This document shows positions 1,535-31,655 of a stretch of DNA of 32,025 bases, piece by piece; the first letter of the stretch is position 1; the number at the start of each line of letters is the position of its first letter. Below the pieces are notes generated by a model that saw only the letters and a program-made list of their open reading frames with translations, was not told where the DNA came from and searched no databases. A program made the position numbers and the translations under genes. This stretch comes from Chrysochromulina tobinii (taxonomy: Eukaryota; Haptophyta; Prymnesiales; Chrysochromulinaceae), in the NCBI GenBank assembly GCA_001275005.1, contig JWZX01003049.1, positions 1 through 32,025 of the forward strand. The letters are read 5' to 3'.

Positions 1535-4500
1535 TCATGGAGCATGCACATCGCTCGGCTTCCGGCCCTTGCTCTCCGTCGTCGCCACCGTGCCCTCCTC
1601 ATTGCTTTCTCGCGCCTCGCGCAGCTGATCGCGCAGCCTCACGCGCTCCCAGTCGTTGGTCGATAGGATGGTCGACCCGTCCCCACTCCGCATGTGGTAC
1701 AGCCCACGGACGACTTCGTCAGCCTCGACGAGCCGCTTGATCTCGAGGCGCACGCAGCGGGAGAGGCTCACCTGCTCGCGCTTGAGCTCCTCCACGCGTG
1801 AGCGACTGTACAGCAGGCGCGCGAGCATGGGGCGCAGGTCTCGTAGGGCGATCATGCCCGACTCGACCGAGATGACTCCTATGTACCTGATGAGGGAGTC
1901 AATCAGGTGTCATCAGAGGTCGTCAATCTACTGTCGTAGGTCACGAAGAGGTCATCAAAAGGTCATCAAGAGCCCCTCATGGTTCATCCGTGGCTATAAT
2001 GTACGAGGCGAGAGGCGCGATCATGAGCAGCGTGATCACGTCGTGCGCCGACATCGAGGTGCACGCCAGCAGGAGCGCTGCATAAGAGAGCCAAACCTGA
2101 GGGACGGAGGCAATTAGATGTGTCATCAGAGGTCATCAAGAGGCACTCATGGTTCATCCGCCTAGGAGCACCATACAAGGGGCACCGCGACCTGATGAGG
2201 GAGGCAATCAGAGGCCATCAGAGGCCATCAGAGTCAATCAGAGGAGCGCCATACAAGGGGCACCGCGACCACCGCAAACTTGAGCTTCTCGGAGAGGAGC
2301 ACGTCGTGCCCCGTCCGTTTGACCGTTGAGGAGGCCAGAGCCACCCGCTGCCGCCATCTGGAGCACGCGAGGGCGGCGAGACGGATGCACTCAGAGGCAC
2401 TCAGAGGCACTCAGAGCCTATCAGAGCCAATCAGAGCCAATCAGAGCCACTCGGAACCAATCAGAGCCAATCAGAGTTCATCAGAGCCAATCAGAGCCCA
2501 TCAGAGCCAATCAGAGCCAATCAGAGCCCATCAGAGCCCATCAGAGCTCTTCAGAGCCAATCAGAGCCCATCAGAGCCCATAACAGTTCATCAGAGCCAA
2601 TCTCACTTTGACCACGCGAGGGCGGCGAGGCCCACGGGCGCGTTGAGGATGATCGAGGGCACCGACGCGATCATGAGCATCACGAACATGTGTCCTATGG
2701 TGAAGAGCGTCGCACCCACCGGAGCACGCTCGAGCGTTGGCACCTGCGAGTCACGCAGCCCGAGCCGCCGCAGCTCCTGGTCGTACCTGAGGAGGGAGGC
2801 AATTAGGTGTCATCAGAGGTCATTAAGAGGCAATCAGCTCCTGGTCGTACCGGCGCAGCCTTTGCATGAGCTCGGCCAGCTCGCGCTGACGAAGCAGCGC
2901 CTTGAGCTCGCGCAGCTCGGTCGCCACGTCACTCGCCTCGCTCGAGCCGCCGTCGCCCACGGCGGCGGCAGCGACGCCGTGGGCAGCCGGAGCGCCGCCG
3001 CTGTTGCCGCCGTTGCCGCCGCCGTTGCCGCCGCCGTTGCCGCCGTTGCCGCCGCCGTTGCCGCCGCCGTTGCCGCCGTTGCCGCCGCCGTTGCCGCCGT
3101 CGAGTTGTCGGAGGAGTCGTCGGATGCCGAAGGCAAAGCGGCGGTCAAGGTCCTGGCGCACGGCCGATTCAAGCTTGCCCGACATGCCCGGACCGCACCA
3201 GAGCCGGCGTACCACGTGGACCAGCTGCAGCTCCTCAAAGGACGAGACGGGCACGATCACGTCCCGCATGGCTCGCTCGATGCGGGCGAGCAGCGCCGTG
3301 CATGCGCGCTGCCGACGCTCGCCACCATGCGCGTGCTCCGCCTTCTCGGCCTTGGAGGCCAGGATGGGCGGCCCCACATGCACAGTCACCTTGGCGGAAC
3401 GGAACACATGCCCGCGGAAGTAGGACAGCCCGACGGGTACGATGGGCACCTGAAGCTGCGCACTGAGGGCGAGGAGCGCCACGCCCGGCTTGAGCTCCAG
3501 CAGGTCGGTGCGGTCGTGCGAGCCGCCCTCTGGGAAGATGCCTAGGCACGCGCCCCTGTCGAGCGCCTTGACCACGTCGGGAAACACCTTGTCATAGTCG
3601 CCACGGGGCAGCACGCGGTATGCGCCGCTTGCGGGCAGCGTCCAGCCAGCGTCGCCGCACGCGTGTTCATGGCGTGTGCCCAAGGCACCGTGTTGCTCAA
3701 CAAGACGCTCATATGGAGGCAAGACGGGCGAAGATGTAGGCAAACTGGCCAAGGGCGCCGGAGGCAAGACGGGCGACGCGGTTGGCGAGCTGGCGCAGGG
3801 TGGCTGCGCGAGGCGCACAAAGCATACTGCGTTGCTCTCGATCGCCGTCACGCGCCAGACCCAAGTGAGCGTCGGCCTGCGCCCGTCGACGAAACTCAGC
3901 TTGTCCCCACACCCAAGCTCCGTGCAGAAGCGGCAAGCCTCGCTGCCAACGAGCCGATAGAGATCCGCACGTGGCTCCTCGGGCTGCCCGTCAGCGGCGG
4001 CATCGCCGCCTGTGGTGCGGCCGCCCTCAGTGGGCTCGGTGGTCTCGCGCGAGGTGGCGGCGGCGGGCTCGGCGCGCAGCTGCAGCAAGGCGCCCGAACC
4101 TGCGAAGGCAACATCTTGCGGGCGCGTGACCGGCACAGCCGCCATCGCTCGCGCAAAAAAGCCGATGATCGGGTGTGTGTACGACTTGCGTGCGATGAGG
4201 AAGCTGATGCGCCGCTGCGGGCACGCACACATGACGCACATGCCGTCGATGAACTGGTTGAAATGATTGGCGACCAGGATGGCTGGCCCGTGCTGCGGGA
4301 TGTTCTCCATGCCGATGACATCGATGCGGCTGATGAAGATGGAGAGCATCGAGTTGAAGAACACACGGCCGGAGTAGAAGACGAGGCTCTGGAGGTCTTG
4401 TAGCACGGCCAACACGAGAAAACAAACAAAGGCCCATCCGAATGCCACGCGGCCCCACTCGGCCAAGCCCGCAAGCGTGCACAAGCGCTTCACCGGGTTG

Positions 4501-4778
4501 AGCGTGTCGAACGAGAGCATGATGAGCACGACGAGGATGAAGAGGTGCATCGTAGTACTCGTCGTTGAGCCGAGCACCTGGCTGCTTGGACGAGGGCGCG
4601 GAAAGGTGAGCTCGTCCTCCTCCTCCTCCTCTGGAACTTTCGGCTCAGCCATTCCAGGCACCTCCACCGGCTCCGGAATATTCGGCTCAGCCGTTCCAGG
4701 CACCTCCACTGGCGGCAGGCTTAACGAAGGTTTGTGCGGTGGCTTTGGCTCGCTCCTTGGCGGGCCAGCCCAGTCCAT
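1535..4778 (-). CDS. Gat/SCT1-type glycerol-3-phosphate (or DHAP) acyltransferase, six exons
   Basis: ER membrane enzyme for the first acylation of glycerolipid synthesis. Proposed exons on the minus strand are 4778-2851, 2786-2607, 2357-2270, 2191-2177, 2096-2005 and 1886-1535. They join in frame to 884 aa. The catalytic motif NHFNQFID (H172, D178) has the H-x5-D spacing of yeast Gat1/Gat2, and FPEGGSHDRTDL (about 415-426) is the second acyltransferase motif. Membrane segments are seen near 78-90 and 112-127. A pair encoded by exons 2-5 (LFTIGHMFVMLMIASVPSII, then KFAVVAVPLVW to LLLACTSM) and a basic C-terminal tail match the family order. Between the motifs lies a long insert (235-390) with Pro-rich repeats, and after residue 560 a Gly-Asn repeat. 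The N-terminus has a doubled VEVPG.AEP and an acidic run. All five introns appear real because only splicing joins the family-like segments. Start and stop are well defined. Confidence 0.85.
1887..2004 (-). mobile_element. Introner-like intron 5 of the acyltransferase gene
   Basis: 118-nt intron starting GTACATTATAG and ending CTCCCTCATCAG. The next exon begins GTACATAGG, so a short, partly diverged copy of the donor sequence lies just after the acceptor. The body carries repeated TGATGACC and CTGATTGAC units like its sister introns. Joining TC to G gives Ser-Tyr-Ile-Gly across the junction and keeps the frame. The weak flank duplication suggests an older insertion. Confidence 0.75.
2097..2176 (-). 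mobile_element. Introner-like intron 4 of the acyltransferase gene
   Basis: 80-nt intron from GTATGGTGC to CCGTCCCTCAG. The body holds TTGATGACC, CTCTGATGACAC and CTAATTGCC, matching the 3' half of intron 1. The flanks (GTATGG at the donor, GTTTGG after the acceptor) are only loosely similar. Splicing joins VAVPL to VWLSYAALLLACTSM in frame, forming a membrane segment. Introns 3 and 4 may instead be removed as one unit, which gives the same protein. Confidence 0.7.
2192..2269 (-). mobile_element. Introner-like intron 3 with about 29-nt flanking duplication
   Basis: 78-nt intron beginning GTCGCGGTGCCCC and ending CTCCCTCATCAG. The sequence GTCGCGGTGCCCCTTGTATG is present both at the donor and directly after the acceptor. 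Similarity extends over about 29 nt with one mismatch. The insert itself is about 50 nt of CTCTGATGGC/CTCTGATTGC units. The second flank copy supplies a 15-nt exon (2191-2177) followed by intron 4. This is one of the clearest target-site-duplication structures in the window. Confidence 0.8.
2358..2606 (-). mobile_element. Introner-like intron 2, expanded by a minisatellite
   Basis: 249-nt intron with donor GTGAGATT and acceptor CTCCAG. A 17-nt duplicate, CTCGCCGCCCTCGCGTG, lies just before the donor in the exon and again just before the acceptor inside the intron. Without the insert the site would read GCG TGC TCC AGA TGG; spliced it reads GCG TGG TCA AAA TGG. Both have the same length and frame, differing as Cys-Ser-Arg versus Trp-Ser-Lys. 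The core is a 10-bp minisatellite. Confidence 0.8.
2388..2600. repeat. 10-bp minisatellite (TCAGAGCCAA unit, about 20 copies)
   Basis: On the plus strand the unit TCAGAGCC(A/C)A is repeated about 20 times with few variants (TCAGAGGCAC at one end; GTTCA, GCTCT and CACTCGGAA variants inside). On the gene strand each unit reads about TTGGCTCTGA, the same unit found two to four times in the other introner-like introns. The array lies wholly within intron 2 of the acyltransferase gene. Confidence 0.9.
2787..2850 (-). mobile_element. Introner-like intron 1 with 17-nt flanking duplication
   Basis: 64-nt intron from GTACGACCAGGAGCTG to CCTCCCTCCTCAG. The sequence GGTACGACCAGGAGCTG spans the donor and is repeated exactly across the acceptor, where it continues as exon. 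The non-duplicated part is about 48 nt (ATTGCC to CTCAG) with CTCTGATGACACCTAATTGCC. Removal gives RRYDQELRLGLRDSQ in frame. If it is retained, translation stops within the element. Confidence 0.82.
3000..3105. repeat. GCCGCCGTT-type coding microsatellite (Gly-Asn repeat)
   Basis: Alternating GCCGCCGTT/GCCGCCGCCGTT units on the plus strand encode a GGNGGGNGG repeat in the acyltransferase near residues 560-590. It lies in the linker between the acyltransferase core and the C-terminal membrane part. Reading frames on both strands stay open through it, which explains long artefactual ORFs there. Confidence 0.9.
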
Positions 4779-5008
4779 CGACGACGGCGTCCACGAGCTT
4801 CGAGACGCTCACTCCAGGGCTGTGTGTGAATGCACACCTGAATTCAACGAAACTTGGACCCGAAAAAAGTGACAAGTCTTTTTAGAAGTTGCGCCAATTC
4901 ATCTCCGCGCCATTCCGAGCGAAGTGCATGCATGCAAGGAGTGAACCGTCAGTTTCGCAAAACCCTTGTCAAATCGTCTGCACGATCACGCTTGTGTACG
5001 TTTGCACG
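4779..5008. promoter_or_regulatory. Divergent intergenic region between acyltransferase and coiled-coil gene
   Basis: About 230 nt separate the two head-to-head ATGs (4778 minus, 5009 plus), so both promoters should lie here. The stretch is slightly less GC-rich than the flanking coding DNA. No convincing TATA box or other element was identified. The frame of the plus-strand gene is open upstream to about 4889 but offers no in-frame ATG before 5009. Confidence 0.45.
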
Positions 5009-7318
5009 ATGCTCATGACAGACTACCAGCAGCCCACGGGCAGGCTCAACCTAAGATTCGCGGACAAGGTCGCCGACGGCCACCACCAATGGCGCAGCCA
5101 GTCGCAGCCAAATGTTCACCTCAAGGAGCGCTGTGGGGGCGGCGACCTGAACAGCCGAAGTGGCTGCGGCATGTGGAAGCCCAAGGGCGCGCCGTGCCCG
5201 CATTGCCAGCGTACCGCCAAGCAGTTCGGCCTCATTGACACGCAGCAGTCGACGCTGACGCCTATGGCAAAGCTGAGCGCAAGGCTCGGCAAACCCGTCC
5301 ACCTCACGATGCCGAGTGGAGCGCTCATGAAGAGCTCCTCGGTGTTCGCGCTGAGGACGACTGAGGAGCTTCTCAGCGGACGCCGGTACGACAGCACCAC
5401 GGCGCACCTGAGCCACGAGGAGCCGCCGACGCGACGCCCCTCGTCGGCCCAGTCGCTCGCGCCCGGCGGCAACAGTACAGGCCGCCGAAGCCCAGCCGAA
5501 GCTTCAGCGGTGTCGATCTCACCATCGTCTCGATCCGCGCCGATCTTCGAGGACGAGGCGAAGGAGATGAAGACCCTCGCCACCGCCTTGCGAGAGGCGG
5601 CCATGTGTCGCACGGAGTGTGCGCACGCCCTCGACCACCTCGCCTCCGACTTTGAGCGCGAGTTCCGCCCGGGCATTCCATCGCGCCCCGCAGCGAGCTC
5701 TCTCGTCGTCAAGAGTAGCACGATCGCCTCGCGCCTGTCGACGGCGTGCTTCAGCCTCGAGGCGGCCGCGGCGACGTGCCTGCAGATCTCGCGCATCGGC
5801 GCCATCGAGCGCGAGTCGATGATCGACGCGCTGCAGGACGACGCCATCCAATTCGATCATAGGATCGACGAGGCGAAGGCGGCGATGCGTCGCGTCGAGA
5901 TGAGCAAGCTGGACGAGCGCGCGGTGTACGACAAGCAGGCGCGCGCCACGGCGCACGCGATGGCCATCGAGCTCGCGCGCGCAGAGCACAAGATTGACAC
6001 ACTGCGCGCCGAGCTGAGCGCAAGCCGGATCCTCATGGGCAGCGCGCTCGAAGAGGAGCGCGCCAAGGTGGTCGCGCATCTGCGCGCGCAAGCGATCAAG
6101 AGGATGCTCAAGATCGAGCTGGCGCGTAGTTGGACGTCGTGGATGGACACGTACAAGCGAGGCCGGAGGCTCAAACGGCGTGCGCTGCTGCGATTTCGTC
6201 AGGGCGAGCTCAACAAGGCACTGAGCACCTGGGCTCAGGTACGTCCGCCCCCCTTTAGCCCTATACCGCCCCCCGAGAGCCCCCCGATGAGCCCTGAGGA
6301 CCTCGTTGATGACCCTTGATGACACCATCGGTGCCCCTCCGCACGGCCCAGGTACACCCCCCGATGAGCCGCATACGGCGCGCGATCGAGCCATACAAGC
6401 AGCAGATCGCCGACCTGGAGCGCGACCTACGCAAGGAGAAGGCTGCGCATGAGATGACGCGCACGATGCTCGAGGCGCGCGCGTTGACCACGGAGGAGGA
6501 GATGCATCGGCGGCGTGAGGCTGAGAAGCACCATCGCATGCAGCACCTGCTGCAGGTAGCGGTGCGCCGGACGCTCAAGATGGACCTCGCTCGCGGTTGG
6601 ACTCAGTGGCACGACGTGACCAAGCATACCAAGATCAATCGCATGCGCGCGCTCGCCCGCTTCCGCTCGCAGGGGCTGTTCAAGGCGCTGCGCACGTGGC
6701 GCCTCGTGTGCCCGCCGCGACACCTGACGCCCGAGAGCCTGATCATCTGCCAGGAGGCGCTCGAGCGCGAGCGCGCTGCGCACGCCAAGTGCCGCGCGCA
6801 GCTGGTCAAGCTGCGCGAAAAGTGGGAGACGAAGTTCGAAAAGTATCGCGAGGCCGTGCAGACGGCGGCGACGCTCCAGTCTGTGGTGCGTGAGCTGCAG
6901 GCGGTGCTCAAGGAGGCCCTCGACGCCTCCTCGTGGTCTTCCTGCCGGATGGTCCTCTACCACGAGCACCTGCGCTACGTCCCCTCGGCCGCGACGCATG
7001 GGCGCGGCGGCAGGTGGCGTGCAGGCCTCGCGCGCAAGAAAAGGGCGAGATTGATTACGAGATTGATTGCATGCTGTTTGCATGCTGTTTGCATGCTGAT
7101 TGCATGCTGATGGCCTCCTCATCAGGTGGCGTGCAGCCTCGCGCAAGAAGGGCGAGATAGACTCGCGCCTCTCCAACGGCTGGTCCGTCGGGCGCCTCGT
7201 CGACGGCTCCCATCTCGAAAAGGTGCTCACGTGGCCAAGCTCCTTGCGCGACACGCCGTTCGTGCGGAGCGAAGACCTGGTGCCATTCCCCCTGGAGCAC
7301 GAGCGCGCGATGGAGTGA
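5009..7318 (+). CDS. Coiled-coil protein with two Sfi1-like Trp modules, three exons
   Basis: Proposed exons 5009-6238, 6352-7013 and 7126-7318 join in frame to 694 aa. The N-terminus (residues 1-90) has a Cys-rich patch (CGMWKPKGAPCPHC) that could bind metal. The rest is mostly charged helix. A 45-50-residue module occurs twice, near 363-410 and 480-530. Each reads R.LK.(D/E)LAR.W..W, then RALLRFR/RALARFR, then KAL.TW. Its Trp-spaced basic helices recall Sfi1/centrin-binding repeats, so a centriole, basal body or cytoskeletal role is plausible but unproven. The first module ends exactly at intron 1. ATG 5015 is an alternative start. Known family membership: none recognised. Confidence 0.65.
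6239..6351 (+). mobile_element. Introner-like intron 1 of the coiled-coil gene
   Basis: 113-nt intron, GTACGTCC to GGCCCAG, phase 0. The body contains GATGAGCCCTGAGG, GTTGATGACC and TTGATGACACC, related to the other introner bodies. CCCCCCGATGAGCC occurs inside it at 6280-6293 and again at the start of the next exon (6357-6370), while CAGGTAC spans both splice junctions. It is more diverged than the minus-strand examples. Confidence 0.6.
7014..7125 (+). mobile_element. Introner-like intron 2 of the coiled-coil gene
   Basis: 112-nt intron, GTGGCGTGCAGG to GCCTCCTCATCAG. CAGGTGGCGTGCAG spans both junctions, and looser similarity (CCTCGCGC, CAAGAA, GGGCGAGAT) continues for about 40 nt, so the donor flank has diverged by small indels. 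The centre has a three-to-four-fold TTGCATGCTG repeat, then TGATGGCC. Splicing joins AG to GTGG and gives GGRWRAASRKKGEIDS in frame. Confidence 0.78.
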
Positions 7319-7519
7319 GTGAATAAGCGCGTGAATATTGTTTGAGATTGCGTATGTGTTTGTTTGCGGTGGGAGTTGGTACGAACTACATCCACAGTCA
7401 TTGGCTCTGCATCAGCAGCACGCCAGCCGTGGCATCAGCAGACCCTAAGCAGACCCAAGCTAGGTAATTACCTCCACCGTAGCTCTAGCTGGAGCCACGA
7501 ACATTAAGCTGCCAGGCCA

Positions 7520-10390
7520 AATGACATTGCTTGCCACTGAGCTCCTCCTAACCACCAGCTCAGTTGGAAAAGCAGAAGCATCAGCTTGCATGGTTACGTC
7601 GTGCTCCTACGGCCTCTCTTACCTCTCCGCTTCAACCAACAGTCGGTGCAGTTCCTTTGCCACTTTACGCTCTGCTACCGCGTACCATCTTCATCAGACG
7701 CCCTGGCGAGTGCTCTGCGAGAAGGCGGAAGCAACTTTCGACCGCCTGCTTCTGGTCATCTGGTGCGTGGTGGACAAAACCGAGCTTGTGATTCGCATCC
7801 TCAAGAAGTTTGAGCCTGATGATTCGCTCATCCACACGTTCGTGAAGAACAGCTCAAGAACAGCTCGAAGATCGTGAAGAACAGCGGCGAGCTACTCTTC
7901 GAACTGCCGCGATACGACTTATGCTTCGAGCTCTCCAGTGACAACCAACAGCTGTGGTCGAAGAACTTAATTGGCTTCTCCCTCACAGCAAGACTCAGCA
8001 GCTCAAGACGCTCCACGGCTTCTAGCAGTATCTCGTACTTGAGTCGGGCAAGCAGAAGATCCTCATTGTTCCGCGGGGCGACGTGGTGAGAGAAGGTGAG
8101 CGGGTCTTCATCGACGGATCGAGCGCGTGCGACGCCAAGCGTGAAGTCACTGAAGTGCATAGGTATGACGTGCACGAGCGTTTCAAGAGTCTCGAGTCGC
8201 CAGCTGGTCTACAGCTGGTCGGCACTCGGTACTAGCGCGCCTGCTGCTGGCCGCGCTTTCTGCTGCTACTGGCACGGTCGACCATATGCAGGCTCACAGC
8301 AGACCGGCGGAGAGCCGGAGAGTCGGCTATCGAGCTAGTGCGCCAGTGCTGGGTGAATCGTCCGCTCGATTGCGAAGAGAGCAAGCACAGCTCCAGTCCG
8401 TCTCCAACTTTAGCCAGCTCGTGCCCGCCCTTCCTTTGATCTGCCACGAGTTGTACATGAGCGCGCGTGAGATGAGTTTTCTACACGCCCCAGATGCTGA
8501 TCCCCCAGAGAAGCTGGCATTCAACGCGGACGGCGGACCCCGCGACGGAGTATACACACAGCGGAAGCAGGCTATGCAACTCAACGCGCACGAGATGTTG
8601 CGCCCTGACGAGGAAACGCGCTCGCTCGCGCACTTGGTGAGACCGCGCTCGCTAAAGAACCTCGAGCGCAATCTTGACGTCCTGCCTCCGAGTCGGAGGA
8701 GGCCACAGCAAGGTGATCCAAGAGACCGAGGAGACTTTGAAGGCGATGATCACGGAGTCGTCTACGGACTCTTGACCCATCGCTGCCTTTCCCCCTAGTT
8801 GATGTCGCAGACTTTGAAAGCACACAGCCCGGCAAGCACATGTTCACGGAGCTCCGCGATAGCTGGGGGGCGCACCAAAAGATGCTCTCAATCCAGCTTG
8901 CAGCGAAGCACACCATCCTGGCGGATCTCAAGAGACAGCGAGAGACGATTAGCGTCGTCTCGTGCATTCGGGTGCAATGTCCTGCCAACTTCAACATGCG
9001 CCGTGCCGCAAACCGTGTCCGGAATGCAAACCTGGTCCCGCACGTGACACTTCGTGACCTCGCCCGAGTATCGCCCGAGCAGCGCTCCACTCAGCCGAGC
9101 TGCTGCGCTTCAACCCGTTCCTCTCGGTATAGGGGCAGAAGCACAGTAAGGCACAGCTGCACGAGTGGGTGCTTGACTGGCTCAAGTACTGCGTGCTCGA
9201 AGACCAACTAGAGCGCATGCATTCGAGCGCCTTGGCAGCGGCCTCTGCCTCCGCCGCTGCCGCCTTCCAGGAGCTCAAGCGTGAGCTCGAAGAGATCGGG
9301 CGCGAATGGGAGGTGCATGTACACCCGGAGTGAGGAGTGGCTGGTCTTCAAAGTTGAGCAGTAGCTCAAGATCCGGCGGGTGCAGTACATGACAAGGGCA
9401 ATCCCTGTGCCGCTACTCAGCTCAGCATGGGCGAGGGCAAGACGCGCGTCATCCTCCCGATGCTTCAGCTGCACCTGCGCGGCCGGGCAAACTCGTGAGG
9501 ATGCACTTCCTCACTATTCCTCACAAAGCTCCTCGTCGAGGCTTACTTCTTCCTCCACCGTGGACACCTCACCGCCAGCCTGATGAATCGGCGGCTGTGC
9601 CTGCTGCCCTTCCACCGCAAGGTGAAGCTCACGATCAATGACGTGCTACGGATGTACCAAGGGCTGCTGCGCTGCGAGCGAAACGGCGGCGCTGTTTTCT
9701 TCACATCAGAGCACCGTCTTTCACTGCAGCTCAAGGGCCACGAGCTGCGCCTCTCTGAGAAGGGCAGCGGGGCTAATGCGGACAGCTTTGAGCGGATCCG
9801 CGCCAAGCTTGACCAGCTGCACAGCCTGCCGTACCACGATGTGAGAGCGACGAGGAGCTACGCCACCACACAGTTCCAGCTAATCTACGCATGGGGTAAG
9901 CTGCAAGCCTTTGCCGGCGGGGTCCGAGCGATGGATCGCAGCAGAGGCGCTCCTACGCGAAATCCAGCACAATCCTGAGGCGACGATAATCCTCGCCACG
10001 CCCGACGTCTCGAAGCGGCAGAAGCGGCAGCTAAGCGGCAGCCACTCTTCTGGCGCTTGGCCCGCAGGCGCAGGAGGCTGAGTACACGCTGTGGCTGTCC
10101 TCCGCTTCGCAGATGATTAACGATGAGCAGAGGCAGGCGCTCGACTCGGTTGACAAGCTCGATCTGACGAGCGAGCCGCAGCAGCTAGACATGCTCTTTA
10201 CCCTGTGCAAGTACAATATGGCTGCGGTCAACTTCTGGCTCAATAGCTGTGTGCTTCCGCGTGAAACAATGCAGTTCCCCAACCGCCTGTGGCCAACGCG
10301 TTCAACTTGACTGACAATCCCTCAGGCGAGGTGATCGGCTTCTCGGGCACCAAGGACAACAATCCTCGAGCGAACAGCTGTGTGTCTCAG
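7520..10390 (+). pseudogene. Decayed giant DUF3638/DUF3645-type protein gene
   Basis: Colinear fragments of one large protein are spread over all three plus frames with many frameshifts and stops. In order they are: an RLLLVIWCVVDKTELVIRIL segment (about 7750-7805); ELLFELPRYDLCFEL and QYLVLESG with KILIVPRGDVV (about 7890-8090); EVHRYDVHERFKSL (8150-8195); LLRFNPFLS and HEWVLDWLKYCVLEDQLERM (9100-9220); EEWLVFKVEQ-stop-LKIRRVQY (9330-9390); Walker-A-like NPCAATQLSMGEGKTRVIL (about 9397-9453); LTASLMNRRLCLLPFHRKVKL and EHRLSLQLKGHELRLSEKG (9565-9770); and AAVNFWLNSCVLPRETMQFP then GEVIGFSGTKDN (10220-10365). This order matches what I recall of very large DUF3638/DUF3645 proteins in fungi, oomycetes and algae. 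At least one stop (TAG before LKIRR) and a frameshift near 9393 are clear, so it is unlikely to be functional. Its function is unknown in any organism I can cite. Confidence 0.75.
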
Positions 10391-10403
10391 ACCAGCACGA
10401 TCG

Positions 10404-10428
10404 AGGGGAGGGTGGGTCGGAGGGTGGG
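10404..10428 (+). other. G-quadruplex candidate
   Basis: GGGG, GGG, GGG, GG, GGG and GGG runs separated by one or two nucleotides occur here on the plus strand, enough for a four-tract quadruplex with short loops. It lies just past the last recognisable codons of the decayed gene. Confidence 0.55.
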
Positions 10429-10455
10429 AGGCAGCGTGTGAGACATATGGGCTAG

Positions 10456-10545
10456 GCTACATGGGGACGCTCACGGCTCACCCAGGCTGTCTGTGGGGGG
10501 CTGGGGGCTTGGGTACATGGGGACGCTCACCCAGGCTGCTGTGGC
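10456..10545. repeat. Two-copy direct repeat of TACATGGGGACGCTCAC
   Basis: TACATGGGGACGCTCAC followed by CCAGGCTG occurs at about 10458 (with a seven-base insert GGCTCAC) and at about 10514. The repeats flank a G-rich stretch. The region 10391-10750 holds no recognisable gene and serves as the upstream region of the DUF1992 gene. Confidence 0.6.
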
Positions 10546-10855
10546 TGGGTTAAACTGAACAACCATGTCCTACCATGTCACGTGTGTGTGTCTGCGTGAA
10601 ACTGGTCCTACCGACAGTACACCGCGAAGCGCGCGCTAGCCCGCCCCTGTTTAGGGGCGGCATGGTGGCTGCTCACGCGACCACTCAGCACTGGCGATTA
10701 TCAGATCGCATGAACGTTTCACAGCGTACAGCAGCGTTGTACAGCGATCGATGAACGCGTCCCAAGAGAGACTGAGGTGCGTGTCTGTGAACTCCTCCTG
10801 GTACCAACTCACAGTGAAAAGGTCGTGCGTGCCCGGAACTTTCCTTCCCCGAAGC

Positions 10856-19354: not shown

Positions 19355-19531
19355 TGTGCCGAGGTCCACGCGAACGCAGAGAACTCACCCTTTCTTCGAG
19401 TCGGCCACGCAGAAACGCACTAGGCTACATGCACATGTGAAAAGCGTGATAACCCGACCCTCTCCCAGCTTCAACCTTATTTAGAAGCAGTTTGGGGCAA
19501 GTCTTCGAAGCGTTCAGCCCGTTCACCCTCG

Positions 19532-22586: not shown

Positions 22587-23273
22587 TCAACCACCAGTGC
22601 GTCCGTTTGAGGGCACCGGCTCGCACCACCTCGGGATTCCAAGCGTACACTTGATGCGGCCTTCGAATACGCGCTCCACAAAGGTCGCGCAGTTGTCGGC
22701 ACCCGACAGGAGTGAGGCGAGCCCTACGTAACGTTCGCCGTCGAGTCGGCTGATGGCAAGCTCGCGCTCCTTGCCGGCCGACGTGGTGAAGCGCGTGAGC
22801 GCGAGCGCGCCAGCGGAATCGTCCGTCCAAGCGTTTAGCGCCGCGGCCTGCGCCTCGTCGAGCTGGCCAGTGTGGAGCTCTACGATGCGCGCTGCCAGTG
22901 TCTTGTTTGCAGCAGCCCGCGTATACAATGGGTCTGGTGAGACCAGAATCCCCTGGTCTGGTGAGACCATGGGCAAGCCGCTTCGGTAACCTTTTGCGTA
23001 GAATCCTACGGACGCCATCTCGTCTGATGAATACCCAACTAAGAGCGAGATATGCCCCACGTCGATGCCAAGGATGTTTTGTGGTACGCGGACGATGGCG
23101 TAGGGCAGACCTGCACTGTATCGACGGGGCGAGGTGGAAGCTCGCCGCAGCCGCGCGTCAGGCGGTGCGGCCGCGAGTTGAGGGGCGCGGTTGGTGTTCG
23201 ATGCTGCAGCAAACGTGGATAAAACAGCGGCGCGTCGTGCGATCGTGTGCAACCGGATAAAGGTCGAGGCCAT
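22587..23273 (-). CDS. Putative permuted papain-fold (NlpC/P60- or PPPDE-like) protein with targeting peptide
   Basis: Single exon, 228 aa from ATG 23273. The in-frame ATG at 23321 is also possible, but 23273 begins an Arg/Ala/Thr-rich amphipathic presequence (MASTFIRLHTIARRAAVLST) typical of organelle import. The mature part has GHISLLVGYSSDEMASVGFY with H74 at a strand start, LPMVSPDQGILVSPDPLY, and a late SGADNCATFVERVF with C195 at a helix start. A His-first, Cys-second order with an NCATFV helix is what permuted papain-like folds show (LRAT, PPPDE, YiiX, DUF4105 groups). Activity could be peptidase, acyltransferase or amidase-like. I do not recognise the exact family. Confidence 0.6.
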   Translation of the reverse strand: MASTFIRLHTIARRAAVLSTFAAASNTNRAPQLAAAPPDARLRRASTSPRRYSAGLPYAIVRVPQNILGIDVGHISLLVGYSSDEMASVGFYAKGYRSGLPMVSPDQGILVSPDPLYTRAAANKTLAARIVELHTGQLDEAQAAALNAWTDDSAGALALTRFTTSAGKERELAISRLDGERYVGLASLLSGADNCATFVERVFEGRIKCTLGIPRWCEPVPSNGRTGG

Positions 23274-23418
23274 TGCGTCGCGGCCGAGATCGCAAGGAAA
23301 GAGACTGTGAATTACAAACATTGGCTGTGAATGGGCTGCTTTATATTATCGCGAGTGTGAAGAATGACCAAGCTAGGGGCAGGTCTAGGAGAAGCACCTA
23401 AGCAACACGCGTACAGTT

Positions 23419-26400
23419 TCAGATGAGCTTCGCCTCGGCGGCGCTGAGCTTCGCCTGCAGCTCTTCCTTTTCGTTGACGAGCTGTAGGATCTGCTCCGAT
23501 TGCGCCTGCAGCATCATGCGCATTTGCCCCTCATCCTCCGCGTCGATGGTGCCCGGCCCCCGCCCGAGCACGCGCCCCCCGGTGGCGGAACGCACCCATG
23601 GCGCCGCGTCGCGGACTCCATGGCGTGTTTCGCGCGCCTTGGCAAGCTTCACCTCCAGAGCCGTCATCTTCTCAAGCTCGGCGACCCGCTGGACCTTCGC
23701 CTTGCGCTGCAGCCGTTGCTGCTCCGCGAGCTCGTGCCCCAAGGCCACCTTCTCGGCGAGCGCCTGCGCCGCCTCCATCTTGGCACGGCGGAGCTCCGCC
23801 GTGAGCGCCTCCACCTGATGAGGGAGGCCATCAGCATGCACTCAGAGACGCACTCGGACGCAATCAGGCGGAGCGCCGCCGTGAGCGCGGCCGTGAGCGC
23901 CTCCACCCGCGCCAATGCGTGGAGGGTCGAGCGCAGAGGATCCGCGGAGAGGCGATCAGCCGCCACGCCGCTGCCGCCCACCGCTGCGCCGACACCCTGG
24001 GCGCCGCTGCCCTCGGCACGAGCGGACTTGGCGCGAAAGGCAGCGGCGTCGGACTTGAGCTGCTCGATCTCGTCTTGCAGCGCGTCGCGCTGCTGACGGC
24101 AGCGCACAAAATCCGCTTTGGCGCTCAGCAGTGCCATCTCCGCATCCTGCTCGGCGTCTGAACCGTGCGTGGACCCTGGCTTCGCCCAACTCAGCGCGCT
24201 CGCCACGGCGCTACCGTGCGTGGACCCTGGCTTCGCCCAACTCAGCGCGCTCGCCACGGCGCTGGCGGCACTCGCCTCGCCGACGTCAGCGCCGCTCCCC
24301 GGCGCGCGGTCCGCCCAATACGGCGCGCGGTCTGCCTGCAGCCGCCCAGCTGGGATGCGTGCCGCCTCGGCCGCCTCGACCGCCACCATCGCCTCCGCCT
24401 CGGTCAGCTTCCGATGCGCCATCGCCACCTCGCGTTCAGTGGGCCGACCGAACAGTTGGCTCAGGGCGTAGATGCCGCCGGCGCCCGTGCCGGCGCTGAT
24501 GGCCACCGGCACGCGCACGGACGCCGCGCCGCCCGCTGCGCTGCCCTCCGCGCCGTGGTGGGCACTTGCATGCGCGCCCCCCGCCGCCTTACTGGCTGCG
24601 CCGTCCGCCACGCCGCCCGCCGCGCCGCCCGCCTCGCCGCCGTCCGATACGTCCACGGGGTGCGCTGAGACGGGGGCGGCACCCAGTACAGCGCGGTAGG
24701 CGTGCGCGGCCACCTGCGGTGCACCGCTCTTGAGGTACATGTTCGCTGTGGAAAGGAGGAGGGAGACGCGAGGATGCACCATGAAGGCGGCCTCGTACGC
24801 GCCACGTGCGCGCGCTGCATCGCCCACCTCGTTCGCCGCTTTCCCCTCGGCGATCAGCTGATCAGCGAGCTGAGAGGCCGCGCTGCCCCCAATCCCGCCT
24901 CCCCGCCCGTCAACGCCGCCGTCGCGGGCCGCAAGTTGGGCAAGCCTTGCGTGCGCTGCCGCGTGCTCGAGAAGGGATTGGACCCGTGATTGCCCATGCT
25001 CGGCCGTCGCCGCCGCGCGGCTGGCCAACTCATATGCACAGCGCTCGAGGTAGAGGCTCGCCCGTGCGGACGCTTCCTGCTCGGCCGCCACGAGCGTCGC
25101 CAGCTGACCGCGCTGCAGTTGCATGCGGTCAGCTAGCGCCGCATGCTCCGCCGTGAGCCGACCGAGCTCGGCGCGCGCCGTGCTGAGCGCCTGCTCGGCA
25201 CGTTCTCGCGCCGCGAGCTCCTCCTCGCGCCTGGCGATCGCCGCGGCGGCCATCTCCTGCGCCGGCTTGATGGCGGTCTCCGCACGGCTCTGCGCCGCGA
25301 TGGCTGCGGCGAGGTCTGTCTTCTCATCAGCGTTGGCCGTAGCCGAGGCCGCGGCCGAGGCCTCGAGGCAGCTGAGCGCCTCACGGGTCGCCTCGAGCGC
25401 GTCCTTAGCCTGCTCGGCCTCACGCATCGCCCTCGCCACCGCCGCGCGCGCCGCCGCAGCTTCGGCGAGAGCCGCGGCTGCCTCCGCCTCGGCGCTGGCC
25501 GTGTGCTTTGCCTTGAGCTCCGCCTCGAGCTCAAGCAGACCGAGCTCGGCAATGCAAGCTCTCCTCTCGTACTCGAGACGGTCGGCGCGCCTCGAGGCTT
25601 CGAAGTTCGCCTCCTGCATGCTCGCGAGCTGCTTCTCGAGCACCACGGTTCGCGCCTCCGCCGCCACCAGCGCCGTCGCCGTCGCGGCCGCCTCCATTTT
25701 AGGATCGATTCCTTTTTTAGGCTCGCTTCCCTTTTTAGGATCGCTTCCACCGAGCGTCTCCGTCCCCGCACGTCCGTAGTAGCTTTGCGAGTTCCCTGGC
25801 GTGTACTTATACACTGTCTTGCCTTCCTCCGTCTCCTCTTTGAGCTTGCCTTCGGCGAGGAGCTGCTCGAGCAACTTATGCCGAGCCAGCTGCCCCCCGG
25901 TACGTGAACTCGTTCTTCAGCTCGAGGTGCCTGGGCATCAGAGCACCGAGCACGCGCCCGGCGCCGCGCTTGCCACGCTGCTGCTCCTCGATCATCGCCT
26001 CGAGCTCCTCCTCCGTGTCCAAGTCGCGGTCGTCCTCCACGTCCGACGCCGCGTCCGACTCGCCCGACTCGCCTCCGGCCGCTTGATGTGAGGCCGCTTG
26101 ATGTGCCACTCGGCCTGCGCCACCGCCGCCGCGCCGGCCGGCGCTGGCTCGCGGGAAACTCTCGCCCGCCTCCGACCCGACGTCGGACAAGTCGGCGTCG
26201 GTGTCGTCGTCGGCCGTGGGCCAACCTGACGACTCCGCCTCTGACCCGATGGACGACAAGCTGTCGCTCCGACCCGAGTCGCTGCCCGAGTCGCTCGATG
26301 CGAGCGGCTTGCCGCTGGAGCCGTGCTTGTCGTAGTTGCGCAGCCAGCGCGAAGAGAGCGTGAGCACGAGGTCGCCCACGGGCACGCCGTCGTGCAGGAG

Positions 26401-26790
26401 CACGAGCATGAGCTCCTCGCTCACGGCCTCCAGGCTGGCATGCCGTGCGAGGTCCACCTTGGCGCGCCCGAGCGGCCGGAAAGAGCCGGTCTTCTTGCCC
26501 TCTCGGCCGCACAGGAGCGTGAAAGTAGCCTCCTTGGGAAGGTATTGGGCGGCGCCGCGATCGGGGTCGCGGTACATGGTGCACACGAGCGAAAGCTCCT
26601 CGTCATACGAGGCCACGCCGACGCTGCTGGCGGCAAAATCGCGCGTCGAGGCTGCACGATCACCCTTCTTCCACAGAACGCGGTAGCGCACGTCCGGCAA
26701 GAGGGCAATCCCGTCGCGCAGGCTCACCGACCGCACCTGCACAGAGAAGTGGTACTTGAACTTGCCGCCCTTGTGCAGGAACCTCTTCAT
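23419..26790 (-). CDS. NT-C2 domain coiled-coil protein, two exons with an apparent frameshift
   Basis: About 1,090 aa from ATG 26790. The N-terminal 150 residues form an NT-C2 (EEIG1/EHBP1-type) domain: KFKYHFSVQVRSVSLRD, RYRVLWKKGDRA, SLVCTMYRD and DLVLTLSSRWL. Such domains bind membranes or Rab partners. An acidic Ser/Asp-rich linker follows. The frame then breaks within six C's at 25893-25898; one base fewer reads FTYRGQLARHKLLEQLLAEG continuously. The rest is Ala/Glu/Arg coiled coil with a TPR-like stretch (AADQLIAEGKAANEVGD... AFMVHPRVS) and repeats. Intron 23906-23815 joins ALAR to VEALTAELRRAKMEA, and the last exon (23814-23419) continues the coiled coil. The frameshift may be a sequencing error or a real break. 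Confidence 0.7.
23815..23906 (-). mobile_element. Introner-like intron of the NT-C2 coiled-coil gene
   Basis: 92-nt intron from GTGGAGGCGCTCACGGCC to GGCCTCCCTCATCAG, phase 0. GGTGGAGGCGCTCACGGC (18 nt) spans the donor and recurs exactly across the acceptor. A 12-nt GCGCTCACGGC(C/G) duplication follows the donor copy. The body includes TGATTGCG, CTCTGAGTGC and GCTGATGGCC. Splicing restores coiled coil in frame; retention leads into a frame that stops at 23664. Confidence 0.82.
24162..24263. repeat. 51-bp tandem duplication inside the coding region
   Basis: Two nearly identical 51-bp copies begin at 24162 and 24213. On the minus strand they encode ASALSWAKPGSTHGS twice (17 residues per unit). 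Being a multiple of three, the duplication keeps the frame. The near identity suggests it is recent. Confidence 0.9.
25690..25750. repeat. Three 18-bp coding repeats (GSDPKK type)
   Basis: TTTTTAGG(A/C)TCG(C/A)TTCC units on the plus strand encode GSDPKK, GSEPKK and GIDPKM in the NT-C2 coiled-coil protein, just before the long helices begin. Confidence 0.8.
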
Positions 26791-26984
26791 GAACTTGCGA
26801 CTTCGGGCGTGCCGTCCGTGTGAGCGGGTCGCAAGTTCTTGCGAGCACACTTGCCCCCTGCTAGAAACCCCGCCTCGCGCCGCACTGTAACTGCAGCCCC
26901 TTTTCACATACTGTTCACCGATGGACGTGGGTGAAAGTTGGTGGGTTTTGATTGGACGAGAACAAGATCAACTTTTCGTGGGGT

Positions 26985-28068
26985 ATGGAGTTCATCCTCG
27001 GCAGCACCACGAGCAGAACGGCCCCCGTTGCTTCTACCCGAGATGTCCTGCCATTAACGGCCGCCATCAGCATCAAACGCCCCACCGAGTGCATGGTGTG
27101 CATGGAGGCTCCGCGGAAGATCCGCTTCGCGTGCGGCCATCTTGCGTGCTGCGAAAAGTGCACAGCCGAGTGCGTTGTTGGACTATCGATCCCTCGGGCT
27201 TGCCCTTGAATGACGCCTACCGATTGAGATGCAGCTTACAATAGTTCCGCACGTCGACTCTTGCGCTCGCAGCCTGATTGCCACTGCCGACAATCGCGTG
27301 CCGCAGAATGCCTGCCCAATGTGCCGAGCAGAGATCATTGTGTGGGAGCAGTTGGGAGAGGATGACGATGCCTTCACGTATCGCCAGCCCGCTGGGCCAG
27401 TTCCAGGACCGATCAAAACCAAGCCACCGCGGCCGCCCGATCCAGCACGGTCGCCCGATGCAGTGGCACTGGACCAGGAGCCTTTCGTCCTTTTGTTTCG
27501 CGAGAGCGGCAGCGTGGGGATCAGCCTCGCACGCCCTTGGCGAGGGCCTCAGGGGCTGATGCACAGCGTGCGCGATGTGAGCTTCGGCTCACCCGCGGAC
27601 GATCTAGGGTGCCCCACGGGCGGTGTGATCCTGCATGTGAACGGAGTCAGTGTGATCGGCATGTCGCGAGCCGAGGTTCTCCAACGGACTCAGGAGCGGC
27701 CCCTCCGGATCGTGATGCGCCTACCCCTCGCGGGCGAGTGGCCGATCCCCGACCCGCCCAACCAGCCGCCGCTACGAGCCACCGTGATCCCCAAAGGTTG
27801 CTGGGACGTCCAGTATACGGTCACGTTGCCCCCGAGCGTGGTGGCTGGCGAGACGCTCATCGTTGCCATGCCGCCGAAGTACACGGTGCACGTTGCGTTC
27901 GTCGTGCCGCGCACTGTGGCTCCGGGCGCCCAGCTGCTGCTCAAAGTGGCCCCAGAGGATCTTCGGAAGCTGCGCAAAAGCCGAGGCCGTCTGGCGCTGA
28001 TCGCGATGAATATTATTCAGGCGCGGAGGACGGTACGATACTCGATAGCTACTACCCCCACGCTGTAG
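26985..28068 (+). CDS. RING finger-PDZ protein (putative E3 ubiquitin ligase), two exons
   Basis: Exons 26985-27169 and 27273-28068 join in frame to 326 aa. The RING finger, split by the intron, has C36, C39, C50, H52, C55 or C56, C59, C76 and C79 (CMVC, CGHLACCEKC, CPMCR), a C3HC4 pattern that should bind two zinc ions and recruit an E2. A PDZ domain follows (about 132-213; SVGISL near 142-147 as ligand loop, GGVILHVNGVSVIGMSRAEVL). The C-terminal part is beta-rich with two VxAGxxLxVxxP-type motifs (LPPSVVAGETLIVAMP and PRTVAPGAQLLLKVAP). RING plus PDZ recalls animal LNX ligases, but there is only one PDZ and no evidence of orthology. ATG 26985 gives the first in-frame Met; an ATG at 26921 is in another frame. 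Confidence 0.82.
27170..27272 (+). other. GT-AG intron splitting the RING finger
   Basis: 103-nt intron, donor GCCGA|GTGCGTTG and acceptor CGCTCGCAG|CCTGATT. Splicing joins EKCTA-D-LIATADNRVPQNACPMC in frame, placing the last Cys pair at normal RING spacing. It has no flank duplication and no CTCTGATG units, so it is not an introner. Confidence 0.8.
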
Positions 28069-28877
28069 GATCTCTAGGACGTCACGTCGAACGGGACGCG
28101 AAGACCGAAGTCGCGTTGTGCGAAACCCGAAACGAAACACTTACCTCTTTCGTTAGGGGGGAAATTGAGTAAAACACGACCAGTGTGTCGCTCGGTTGCA
28201 ACTTGCAAGCCGGACTTCTTAACCGTTTCGCGGTTCGTTCGCGGATCCTCCGGTCCGCCCCGGCGCCGGCCCCGTGCGCACGGGCCACGGCAGGTCGGAC
28301 GGGGAGACTCGTTTATTATTACGAGTACCGTACGTACCCCCGACCCGGGCACGATCTCTGTTCTCTCTGTCTCTCCTCCACTCGATGTCTCTGCCCCGCA
28401 CTCGTGGTGTGCGCCCTGCGGAAGCAACGAGCGACATGATCCGAGTCGACTCGGCACGAGCACGAGTCGCAGTCCGCGACACGACGCGGGCGCCTTCTCT
28501 TCTTGATGGGCCCGCTTGGGCTTCACACACGCCAAGCCCCGCAGCCACATTCGGCATCTCGCTTCAGAGCACTGGCGTGCCGATCCCCGCGTGTGCTTTC
28601 GCCCTGCCCCGATGCCCGAGTACGGAGAGGCGAGATCACGTCGCGTGGGCGCAGCCACCTTGCTCCCAGCGGGTTCTCTTCGCCTCACACAGTGCACGCG
28701 AGAGGTCCTAGAGAGAGCATCGCAGCATCGGCGATCCTCACCGTCCAGCCAAGCTCGTTCGCTATCGCCCCATGCACTCCCGCGGCGAGCCACTTCATGC
28801 TAGTGTGTCCTTGCCCTGTATGCACCGCGCCTTTCCGCGCTGATATACCGCGCCAGCCTGCGCCGTCGCGGCGCGTC
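28069..28877. other. Convergent intergenic region of about 800 nt, no gene seen
   Basis: It lies between the stops of the RING-PDZ gene (+) and the CAP-H gene (-). ORFs such as the one starting at 28503 run over the CAP-H coding region in an antisense frame and are shadows. No RNA gene or repeat was recognised. Confidence 0.6.
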
Positions 28878-31655
28878 TCACTTGGCGGCCTTGCCTTTCT
28901 TGGCGGCCGCAGGCTTGGTTCCCATCTCGGGCTGTGTGGGGCGCGCCACGTCCCGCAGCCGTACGGCGAGCCCGCCGCGCTCGCCAACGAGCTCGACCGC
29001 ATGGCGCTGGCCCGCCTCTTCAAAGTATTCCTCACCCACCTTGATGAAGCAGTCCACCTTGAGCAACCCGACCTTAAACTTCTCTACCTCCTCCTTGCGG
29101 AACTCATGCTTCTTCCGGAGCGCCTCGCTGAGCGCCTCGTTGAAGAGCTCGGTACCAGAAGCTGGTCGCTCACGCCCAACATTCGTCCACTTGGTTCCGA
29201 GCGCGGGCGGCTCGTTGGCCAGGTGGAGCAGGCAATAAAAGGCCTGCGCAATCGAGATGCTCTCGGGCTTGGCGGGCGGCGGCATCCGCTCGGGCAGCCG
29301 ATGCAAAGCCTGCTGGAAGTCCACCACGCGCGTCGGCGAGCCCGCACCGTCGCCCTGTAGCAGGGTCCACAGATCCTCCTTGAGCTTGCCCACATCCACC
29401 ACTGTCGAGCGGCGTGCGGTGGGCCAATCCTTGGAGCTCACCTGATGAGGGGATTACTCAGAGGTCATCAGTGCCAATCAGAGGTCATCGGGGGCCAATC
29501 CTTGGAGCTCACCTGATGAGGGGATTACTCAGAGGTCATCAGTGCCAATCAGAGGTCATCAGGGCCAATCCTTGGAGCTCACCGCGATCTGCGCCGGCGG
29601 GACGATGGGCGCGGGCGCAGGGGCGCGAGGGCCGGCGCCGGCGCCACCATCCTGCTCGTCCCCGCCACCGATATCCCATCCGCCCTCCTCGTCGGGCCAG
29701 TTGCCGTCGTCGCCGTCGTCGCCCCCGTACGCGTCGACGCCATCGGCTGCGCCCTTGCTCGCTGCACCGGGCTCGGCGGAAGAAGAGGGTCCGTTGGCGA
29801 GGGCCTGGGAGCCGTCGGCGTCCGGGAACAGGCTCTCGGTCCGGCGCTTGGCCTGACGCTGCTGGCGCTGCACGTGCCGCTCGTACGCGATGCGCTTCGA
29901 CGGGCGCTCGAAGAGCGTCTCGAGCGCCGCCATCTGCACTTGGAAGTCGCGCTTGAGCAGTGTCTCAGCCGCCTTGGCCTTGGAGAGCATCGTCTTGGTC
30001 AAGATGGTCGTCCCCTTTGTGTCGAGCGCCGCCGCGTCCTCCAGCTCAAGTACGAGCGCCGCCGCGTTCGAAAAGTCGACCGTGACCGGCTCCTTGGCCT
30101 TGCGCGCCCCCGCACCCGCGCCGGCCGCGCCTCCCGCAGCAGCCGCGCCCACACGGTTCCGGCGTCTCCTCGCTAGCTGCTCCGCCATGCTGCTGCCGCC
30201 CTGGTACCCGTTGCCCTCGAGCCCGCCCCCGTCGAGCTCGAGCTCGTCGCCGGCGTCGTCGATGAGCGATGCGGGGCCCTCGGCATCGACGAGGCCGATG
30301 AGCCCCCCCTGGGACTGCGCCACGCGCTCGTCGGGCTCGTCGGCAGCTCCGGGTCCGTCGTCGCCCCAGCCGTCGGCGCCGTCGTCGGCGAACTCATGAG
30401 CACCAGGGCTCGACAGCGCTGGGGGTGCAACCTCGGGCGCGGCGGCCAGCTCGGGCTCCAGCTCGGGCCCCGGCTCTGGCTCTGGCTCCGGCTCGGGCTC
30501 CGGCTCGGGCTCGAGCTCGAGCTCGAGCTCCGCCTCCGGCTCCTCCTCGCCGTCGTCGGGCTCGCCGTCGGGCCGCCGCTCCGCCCAATACTGTCGGAAG
30601 GCTGTCGCCACCCGGAGCTCCTTTGTCACCGTGGGCAGCAGGCCGACCAGAGCGGCCGCGGGCAGCGGCGCCGGCGGCGCGGCGACCTGCGCCTGAGCCC
30701 GCGCCGCCGCACTCGCCACCTCCGCGTCGCGCGCGTCGAGGACGAGCGTGAGGCCGTCGGCGCCGAGGTCGAGGCTGTGTACCATCAGGCCGCGCGCGCC
30801 CTTGATGCCGTACAGCGCGGAGGTGCGGTAGAAGAACGGGTCGGCGTCGGCGCCGAGTTCGTGCTTATCCATGTTTAGCTTCGACGGGTCGGTCTCCAGG
30901 TACGCGGTCGGGTTCTTGCGCTTGGGCTTCTTGGGCTTCTTGGGCTTCACGATCTTGGACTGGACGAAGTTGAACAGTTCCGTCGCCTTGGCGTCGCTCA
31001 GGTTCAGCTGCGTCGCGATCTCGTGCATGTCGGCGGGACTGGCCGTCTTCTTAGCCTCGGCCATGAGCGCGGTCATCTCTTCCACGACCGACGCCTCCGC
31101 CCACTCGGGCGCGCCCTCGAGGTCGACTGCGCCAGCCTTGGCGCCCTCCTCCTCCTCCTCCTCGTCCGCCGGGTCGTCCACCTTGGCGCCCGGCCGGTCG
31201 ATCATGCGGCGGAGCCGCTCCTGCTGCATCTCGAGCGCATCGACACGCGCCGCGATGATCCGGGAGCCCGCATCGAGCATCATCGCCCCCTTTTGGAAGA
31301 TCTCGATGGTACCGCCGGTGGAGTTGCGGTCCATGTCGCGGATCATCCGGTCCATGTCGTCGATGTTGTACGCATTCAGGAAGGCATTCTTCTTGTTCAC
31401 CTTGTTGTCCATGAAGCGCTTCATCGCGTCGCCGTAACCCTCTAGGCGTCGCTCCTGGCGACCTGGCGTTTCCTTGAGCGGTGACTTCACCTTGGCGAGC
31501 TGCTTCTGCACCGCCGCCTGCGCGGCCTCCTGGCGCTCGTTCTCGTCATCGTTCTCGTCCAGGCCGACGTCACCAGGCAGGAACCCGCCGGACAGGCGGC
31601 GCTTGCCGCCCGACGAGTTGCGCCGGGGGGCGATCACCGGCAGCGGAGAGCTCAT
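28878..31655 (-). CDS. NCAPH: Condensin subunit CAP-H (Barren-type kleisin), two exons
   Basis: The kleisin closes the SMC2/SMC4 ring of condensin I and is needed for mitotic chromosome compaction. Exons 31655-29583 and 29441-28878 join in phase 0 to 878 aa. Family landmarks: NDDENERQEA (about 35-42), NKVNKKNAFLNAYNIDDMD (84-102) with AARVDAL (about 135), KLNMDKHELGADADPFFYRT (259-278) and, after the intron, RSTVVDVGKLKEDLWTLL (702-719) with SISIAQAFYCLLHLANE (752-768), the C-terminal winged-helix region that contacts the SMC head. An acidic Glu-Pro repeat lies near 400. The C-terminus extends beyond the usual end with a charged helix and a Lys/Ala tail. ATGs at 31736 and 31805 are alternative starts. 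Confidence in identity is high. Confidence 0.88.
29442..29582 (-). mobile_element. Tandemly duplicated introner-like intron in CAP-H
   Basis: 141 nt made of two copies (70 and 71 nt) of one unit: GTGAGCTCCAAGGATTGG, then GATGACCTCTGATTGGC, ACTGATGACC and TAATCCCCTCATCAG. The unit start recurs a third time as the first codons of the next exon (VSSKDWP). About 21 nt are shared at all three places, and each copy has its own donor and acceptor. Removal of the whole block keeps phase 0. One extra G separates the copies. Confidence 0.85.

Follow-up and report, generated by a model that had tools for sequence, protein, structure and literature searches.

A family of introns found in Chrysochromulina tobinii bears on the open questions of where new introns come from and whether introners travel in the form of DNA or RNA. 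We read end to end a stretch of 32,025 nt (the window), which is the whole of contig C1890 in an assembly of 53.15 Mb and 2,253 contigs. An earlier note had proposed nine introns in four genes of the window and regarded them as members of an introner-like family common to at least four unrelated genes. The locus raised the questions of whether these segments are introns, whether they derive from one element, and how such an element enters genes. The GC content of the window is 0.63-0.67. A run of C at 31998-32025 closes the contig and is probably an assembly or sequencing artefact, and positions 1-99 hold an inverted repeat, with 30-nt arms 80% complementary and 39 nt apart, amid short GTATACRC-like repeats. 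For PARP, the named relative was P0220 (Prymnesium sp. MAG), at 44% over 32% of the query.

Read on the transcript strand, all nine proposed introns have GT as their first and AG as their last letters, and their removal restored one reading frame in each of the four genes. The acyltransferase gene, on the minus strand, is broken in all three frames when unspliced and gave one open frame once its five introns were removed. The intron at 1887..2004 ends with the exact 12-nt acceptor CTCCCTCATCAG, and its exon repeat is just GTACAT, 6 nt. The next, at 2097..2176, has the variant acceptor CTCCGTCCCTCAG and an imperfect repeat of about 6 nt, and its first letters belong to the repeat created by the neighboring introner. 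This neighbor, at 2192..2269, carries an exact 20-nt core (2192-2211 on the plus strand) and an exon repeat of 28 nt with one mismatch, whose first copy lies at 2242-2269 and exon copy at 2164-2191. The introner at 2787..2850 ends with CTCCCTCCTCAG and has an exact 16-nt exon repeat, GTACGACCAGGAGCTG, at 2835-2850 and 2771-2786. The intron at 2358..2606 is a sister type, with splice sites recruited in another way: it is an array of 10-nt units that ends with CTCGCGTGCTCCAG, its donor GTGAGATTGG comes from the element, and its acceptor falls within the second copy of an identical 16-nt repeat. At least 41 similar places were found genome-wide.

The remaining three genes gave longer frames when spliced. 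The plus-strand gene encodes 735 aa spliced versus 477 unspliced. Its intron at 6239..6351, which the earlier note had listed as a probable member, is made of TTGATGACC units, lacks the core, ends with CACGGCCCAG and shows a weak repeat only; the frame nevertheless needs its removal, falling back to 477 aa if it is retained. The introner at 7014..7125 in the same gene ends with CCTCCTCATCAG and contains 11-nt units, and its exon repeat is imperfect (7014-7054 versus 7126-7161). In the minus-strand coiled-coil gene (801 aa spliced versus 750 unspliced), the introner at 23815..23906 has the core CTGATGGCCTCCCTCATCAG at 23815-23834 and an exon repeat of about 29 nt, interrupted in the intron copy by 12 additional nt. 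The minus-strand condensin (PF05786-type) gene encodes 939 aa spliced versus 759 unspliced, and still 759 with one of two tandem units removed; the tandem introner pair (71 + 70 nt) lies at 29442..29582, where a 21-nt exon repeat occurs in three copies, at 29421-29441 (exon), 29492-29512 and 29562-29582. Two proposals about these introns held in part. The acceptor thought to be mostly shared was exact or nearly so in seven of the nine and absent from 2358-2606 and 6239-6351. Exon duplications, described as 14 to 29 nt long, were clear and at least 14 nt long in six (those starting at 2192, 2358, 2787, 7014, 23815 and 29442), whereas the other three had only the short or weak matches given above.

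Comparison with relatives was consistent with the frames. The spliced acyltransferase aligned without gaps across all five junctions with P0002 (69% identity), and likewise with P0004-P0009 (47-52%). In contrast, P0001 (95% identity to the acyltransferase) ends in ...RRYDQELIAS, its translation running into the 2787-2850 intron, and P0241 (99%, condensin) ends in ...IAVSSKEWP, running into the 29442-29582 intron. Close strains thus carry both introns. P0001 and P0241 are plain open-frame calls, and P0002 sits on a 12.4-kb contig; if P0002 is likewise a plain open-frame call, its gene would lack all five introns. Within the acyltransferase, a repeat at 2990-3110 (minus strand) encodes Gly-Gly-Asn runs, and P0001 has fewer of these units, indicating that run length differs between close strains.

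We then looked at the family across the assembly. The 20-nt ending CTGATTGCCTCCCTCATCAG was found, with up to 2 mismatches, at 3,302 places in 53 Mb (control, 0), and the 12-nt acceptor CTCCCTCATCAG at 1,799 (reversed control, 6). GT follows the acceptor at 1,208 of the 1,799 places (control, 0), and A, C or T at 213 (control, 6). Among the GT-followed motifs, 726 of 1,208 also have TTGC directly ahead, that is TTGCCTCCCTCATCAGGT (control, 0), so that four further letters are common to 60% of them. Chance does not explain the shared letters; the further copies that the earlier note expected from a genome-wide search are numerous, and the family that it saw in four genes is confirmed. In 91 GT-followed copies, the majority letter at each of positions -20 to -9 has a frequency of 0.78-0.97, with just a weak 10-nt rhythm upstream of -20; this table is biased, since the copies were gathered by CTCATCAG, mostly through longer motifs, and 30 loci by TTGCCTCCCTCATCAGGT. 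The body ahead of the 20-nt ending is variable and often made of repeats of about 10 nt. CTGAT in the core resembles a CURAY branch site, with its A 17 nt before the end. Terminal inverted repeats around the core amount to 5 bp only (CTGAT/ATCAG), and a search for viral carriers gave no exact match of TTGCCTCCCTCATCAGGT in viral_contigs. At C815:10204-10326, C127:6589-6684 and C267:12974-13030 the acceptor motif recurs every 21-22 nt, mostly without GT after it; these small arrays are a satellite-like expansion of the core.

Splicing outside the window was assessed on 38 copies with a codon model trained on the window. Both flanks fell in one frame in 28/38 copies when spliced versus 11/38 when unspliced, and sense orientation was apparent in 31/38. 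Where both flanks looked coding, one frame was obtained in 23/24 spliced versus 7/24 unspliced copies. Splicing of the inserted copies would fit both these frames and the alignments of relatives. From 36 spliced open frames listed, we picked ten that looked recognizable and compared them with Pfam (E 0.001). All ten gave a match, differing in kind: asparaginase, AAA, GH3 C-terminal, Fn3-like, UCH, zinc dehydrogenase, DEAD/DEAH, endonuclease/exonuclease, FtsZ C-terminal and VPS13-like, the DEAD/DEAH and VPS13 matches scoring under Pfam's own cut-off. The intron junction lies within the match in nine of the ten and at its end in FtsZ. The window introns are best read as introners in the broad sense, introns of many unrelated genes derived from one element. 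Two host genes, in L112 (C1396:16860-17360) and at 4886-7320 of the window, encode LARGW..W-type protein repeats (LARGWTAWVETW, LARGWTQWHDV) and are possibly SFI1-like.

The arrangement of copies was analyzed in a sample of 317,542 bases, about 0.6% of the assembly, which comprised the window plus 110 loci, some of them overlapping in part. The loci came mainly from the first contigs of each match list, and copies without the acceptor motif are under-represented because sampling used that motif. The sample holds 190 different CTCATCAG copies, 92 of them followed by GT. An exon repeat anchored at the junction, with a score of at least 12, was found in 56/92 GT copies compared with 4/92 in a swapped-partner control; the other 36 showed no exon repeat at the score of 12 used. 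Unanchored alignment at score 13 gave a repeat in 54/74 core copies, against a control, 15/74, that is not low. These repeats started at the junction in 38/54, 1-5 nt off in 12/54 and at least 12 nt off in 4/54, where the small offsets resemble mutations of the first letters. The duplication was 12-53 nt long (median, 26) among 36 clean single GT copies, exceeding 12 nt in 35, and the intron 51-229 nt (median, 86.5); G preceded the repeat in 25. Mismatch-free repeats of 12-36 nt were present at twelve loci. The donor is mostly GTRCG.

The usual layout is exon, then a GT-starting copy of the downstream exon followed by body and CAG, then the same exon sequence. The 5' part of the intron is target-derived, and the 5' end of the body varies, in many phases, which led us to reject a fixed 5' end at CTGAT. 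A negative correlation of repeat length with body length (Spearman -0.42, p 0.003, n=47) was discounted, because in some rows of that set the repeat extends into the body. These data support the proposal that the family lies in sense orientation, with exon sequence duplicated at its ends, in many unrelated genes.

Copies not followed by GT also showed repeats (56/98 at score 12; control, 6/98), and many of them are tandem units. Among the copies listed, inspection by eye gave an apparent donor later in the repeat, with 21-27 nt kept in frame, in six of nine (L070, L071, L090, L094 and two L025 copies); L032, L104 and L099 gave no multiple of three. Some copies thus seem to insert whole codons into proteins. 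In L101 the repeat has no GT and adjoins a preceding CACAG, maybe an older acceptor. Tandem units are frequent: 13 of about 100 GT places listed sit 32-92 nt behind another on the same strand, and the 29442-29582 pair is of this kind. The repeat-body-repeat structure lends itself to slippage or unequal crossing-over, and since tandem arrays abut AG to GT, they are natural candidates for stepwise (recursive) splicing. Local spread was rejected, as pairs less than 3 kb apart reached a score of at least 20 in 17.5% of 80 cases versus 14.1% of 3,950 for different contigs; same-gene twins occur on C214 and C172 all the same. In the L093 intron (C180) part of the exon piece is present a second time, and the L028 intron (C66) contains about six 14-nt units made from the upstream exon, signs of repeated local copying at insertion.

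To trace the origin of individual copies, the genome was queried with five introns chosen for their unusual letters. Two had a parent in another gene and one a same-gene twin, and two had no match, the L079 and L028 fillers having no second copy in the genome. The letters GGAACTCGAAAGGATCCGGA of the C19 intron, in an asparaginase gene, occur exactly elsewhere only in an 80-nt tandem array on C395, three times, with one further place at 2 mismatches on C449. On C395, GGAACTCGAAAGGATCCGGA is exon, the end of a 45-nt repeat. Up to CAG, 58 letters of the C19 intron are identical in the C395 array, in part exon in C395. Similarly, CTCCGCCAGCTGTCTGATTGCC in the C107 intron, in an FtsZ gene, has its only other occurrence on C1396, where ATGAACTCCG is exon and part of that locus's own repeat; the two introns share 70 identical letters up to CAG, in part exon in C1396. 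Both copies begin about 17-22 nt inside the parent intron and end at the parent's CAG, in genes unrelated to those of the parents, and each has its own duplication. A foreign exon piece is found in them because the parent intron itself began with a duplicated exon piece. From these matching letters, we read the C19 and C107 introns as 5'-truncated copies of the C395 and C1396 introns, and introner copies thus move between genes. The C214 twins have a common body from GGCTC onward, found in C214 only in the genome search.

That two introns still hold a piece of another gene suggests that spliced-out introns were pasted back into DNA. We propose that the introners spread by copy-and-paste of the intron, probably via excised intron RNA, and give this RNA-like reading as a whole a probability of about 0.6. 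More tentatively, in a strict form that we would put a little short of an even chance, the excised spliceosomal intron RNA itself is the transposition intermediate and is copied into genomic DNA where staggered cuts occur, carrying with it the exon piece acquired by the parent when it was itself inserted. Most copies carry a portable 3' splice module with an exact 3' end (the branch-site-like CTGAT, a short pyrimidine tract and ATCAG). The target would supply the 5' splice site, insertion duplicating 12-53 nt of exon that starts with GT, and the mRNA would be restored by splicing that joins the GT of copy one to the CAG ahead of copy two. The moving unit would be the whole intron, or the part from an internal point through to the 3' splice site. 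We infer that the RNA was copied from its 3' end, halting before the parent's 5' end, and that the copy was joined into a staggered DNA cut, through target-primed reverse transcription or some equivalent form of repair patching. This would leave the 3' junction exact and the 5' junction ragged, with a duplication that is long and variable. Tandem expansion of repeat-body-repeat units and drift of the decamers would follow. Of this scheme, the size and layout of the family, the reading frames and two cross-gene copies with captured exon are observed; conjectural are the RNA intermediate, the enzyme and the sequence of events. Under this proposal, copies stop at the parent's CAG because that intron end is made by splicing.

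An exact 3' end, variable 5' ends with 5' truncation, and long variable target duplications characterize LINEs and SINEs (non-LTR retrotransposons) and are the mark of target-primed RNA copying, as by LINEs. The present family combines variable duplications and an exact 3' end with 5' truncation in the two traced copies. Unlike LINEs and SINEs, it has no 3' poly-A or tail repeat, and the copied unit is a spliceosomal intron ending in CAG. The genome has 26 matches to reverse transcriptase (RVT_1), several of them in open frames of more than 1,800 aa; no core was found in the loci around four of them, and none of the 26 was linked to the introner family.

Alternatively, staggered breaks in exons may have been filled in, duplicating the overhang, and patched by ligation with intron DNA from elsewhere, through template switching or end joining, only patches with a usable CAG beside the exon surviving selection. 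The long variable repeats fit such patching, and repair of staggered breaks has been proposed for the neointrons of Daphnia (PMC4202315). Some 5' junctions share short letters, TG in C107/C1396 and GGCTC in the C214 pair, and the second partial exon copy of L093 and the exon-derived 14-nt units of L028 fit DNA template switching equally well. The exact CAG end could also come from selection for splicing. Against such patching, the inserts are one family with one 3' end, both traced copies end at the parent's CAG, and an overrun past CAG by a multiple of three should sometimes be tolerated, yet 38/54 repeats start at the junction. We consider it unlikely, while leaving it some weight because only inserts ending in CAG may survive in exons and because of the local re-copying in L093 and L028.

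The earlier note had favored a non-autonomous, transposon-like element with target-site duplication as in other algae. A related rival is a MITE-like DNA-transposon introner with CTGAT/ATCAG ends moved by a transposase. The sense layout of the family, with a carried 3' site and a 5' site derived from the duplication, is that of Symbiodinium introners (PMC9860276). Such a transposon is not supported and appears very improbable, as the duplication is of inconstant length (12-53 nt in the clean copies, versus target-site duplications of 3-9 bp), the inverted ends are a mere 5 bp, the 5' ends of the body vary, and two copies begin within the exon-derived stretch of their parents and hold another gene's exon piece. 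Finally, ordinary immobile introns that obey a strict consensus at the 3' splice site, with repeats expanding in place and exons duplicated in tandem, would account for splice signals within CTGAT and CTCATCAG and for the tandem expansion that is clearly active, but hardly for the shared letters from CTGAT to ATCAG, such as TTGC at positions four to one before CTCCCTCATCAG in 60% of GT copies, another gene's exon inside two introns, or P0002 aligning as one uninterrupted protein over five intron sites, and we give this scarcely any credence.

The strict form of the RNA-like reading would, if true, represent retrotransposition of spliceosomal introns straight into DNA, a mode set apart from DNA-transposon introners as well as from reverse splicing into mRNA. 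Since a captured piece of the parent gene makes copies traceable to parent introns, each event can be examined for its truncation, junctions and duplication. We found no description of this layout in the literature searched by title and abstract start, with subscription journals mostly outside. Introners of aquatic eukaryotes, as described in PMC9860276, have duplications of 3-9 bp, and most families are consistent with DNA transposons; the Chrysochromulina family described there has a 4-bp target-site duplication and carries its 5' site. Like those introners, the present family places similar introns in many unrelated genes, and as in Symbiodinium the element carries the 3' site and the target duplication gives the 5' site. 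Codon-adding insertions are likewise known there from Aureococcus introners. Unlike them, it has 12-53-nt repeats, no long inverted ends, a variable 5' end and captured parent exon. The search in PMC9860276 demanded similarity near both splice sites, which is not found here since the 5' part is target-derived and the start of the body varies, and a family of this layout could thus be missed.

In Micromonas introner elements, for which reverse splicing is proposed (PMC3879977), and in fungal introner-like elements (PMC4457414), introns are copied in sense, with intron RNA as the proposed intermediate, as here. No duplicated target exon is expected if an intron reverse-splices into mRNA and recombination follows, whereas our duplications are long and found in 56/92 copies versus 4/92 controls. 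Daphnia neointrons, explained by staggered-break repair, have exon-made direct repeats of 4-12 bp at their ends (PMC4202315); ours resemble them but, compared with that description, have a median repeat of 26 nt and a single shared 3' module. In both length and variability the duplications thus exceed those described for introners (3-9 bp) and for Daphnia neointrons. In PMC11782384, repeats of 4-30 bp near the borders are reported for 213 introns. The introner elements of the protist Amoebophrya are likewise repeated introns and bear direct repeats, but differ in their 3- to 5-nt direct repeats, 8- to 20-nt inverted repeats and non-canonical splice sites, as summarized in PMC7789003. Lastly, the tandem copies of intron plus exon piece recall the intron-bearing repeats of Cryptococcus (PMC2395259), which, as that source describes them, reflect local duplication within one gene only, whereas here dispersal between genes occurs too.
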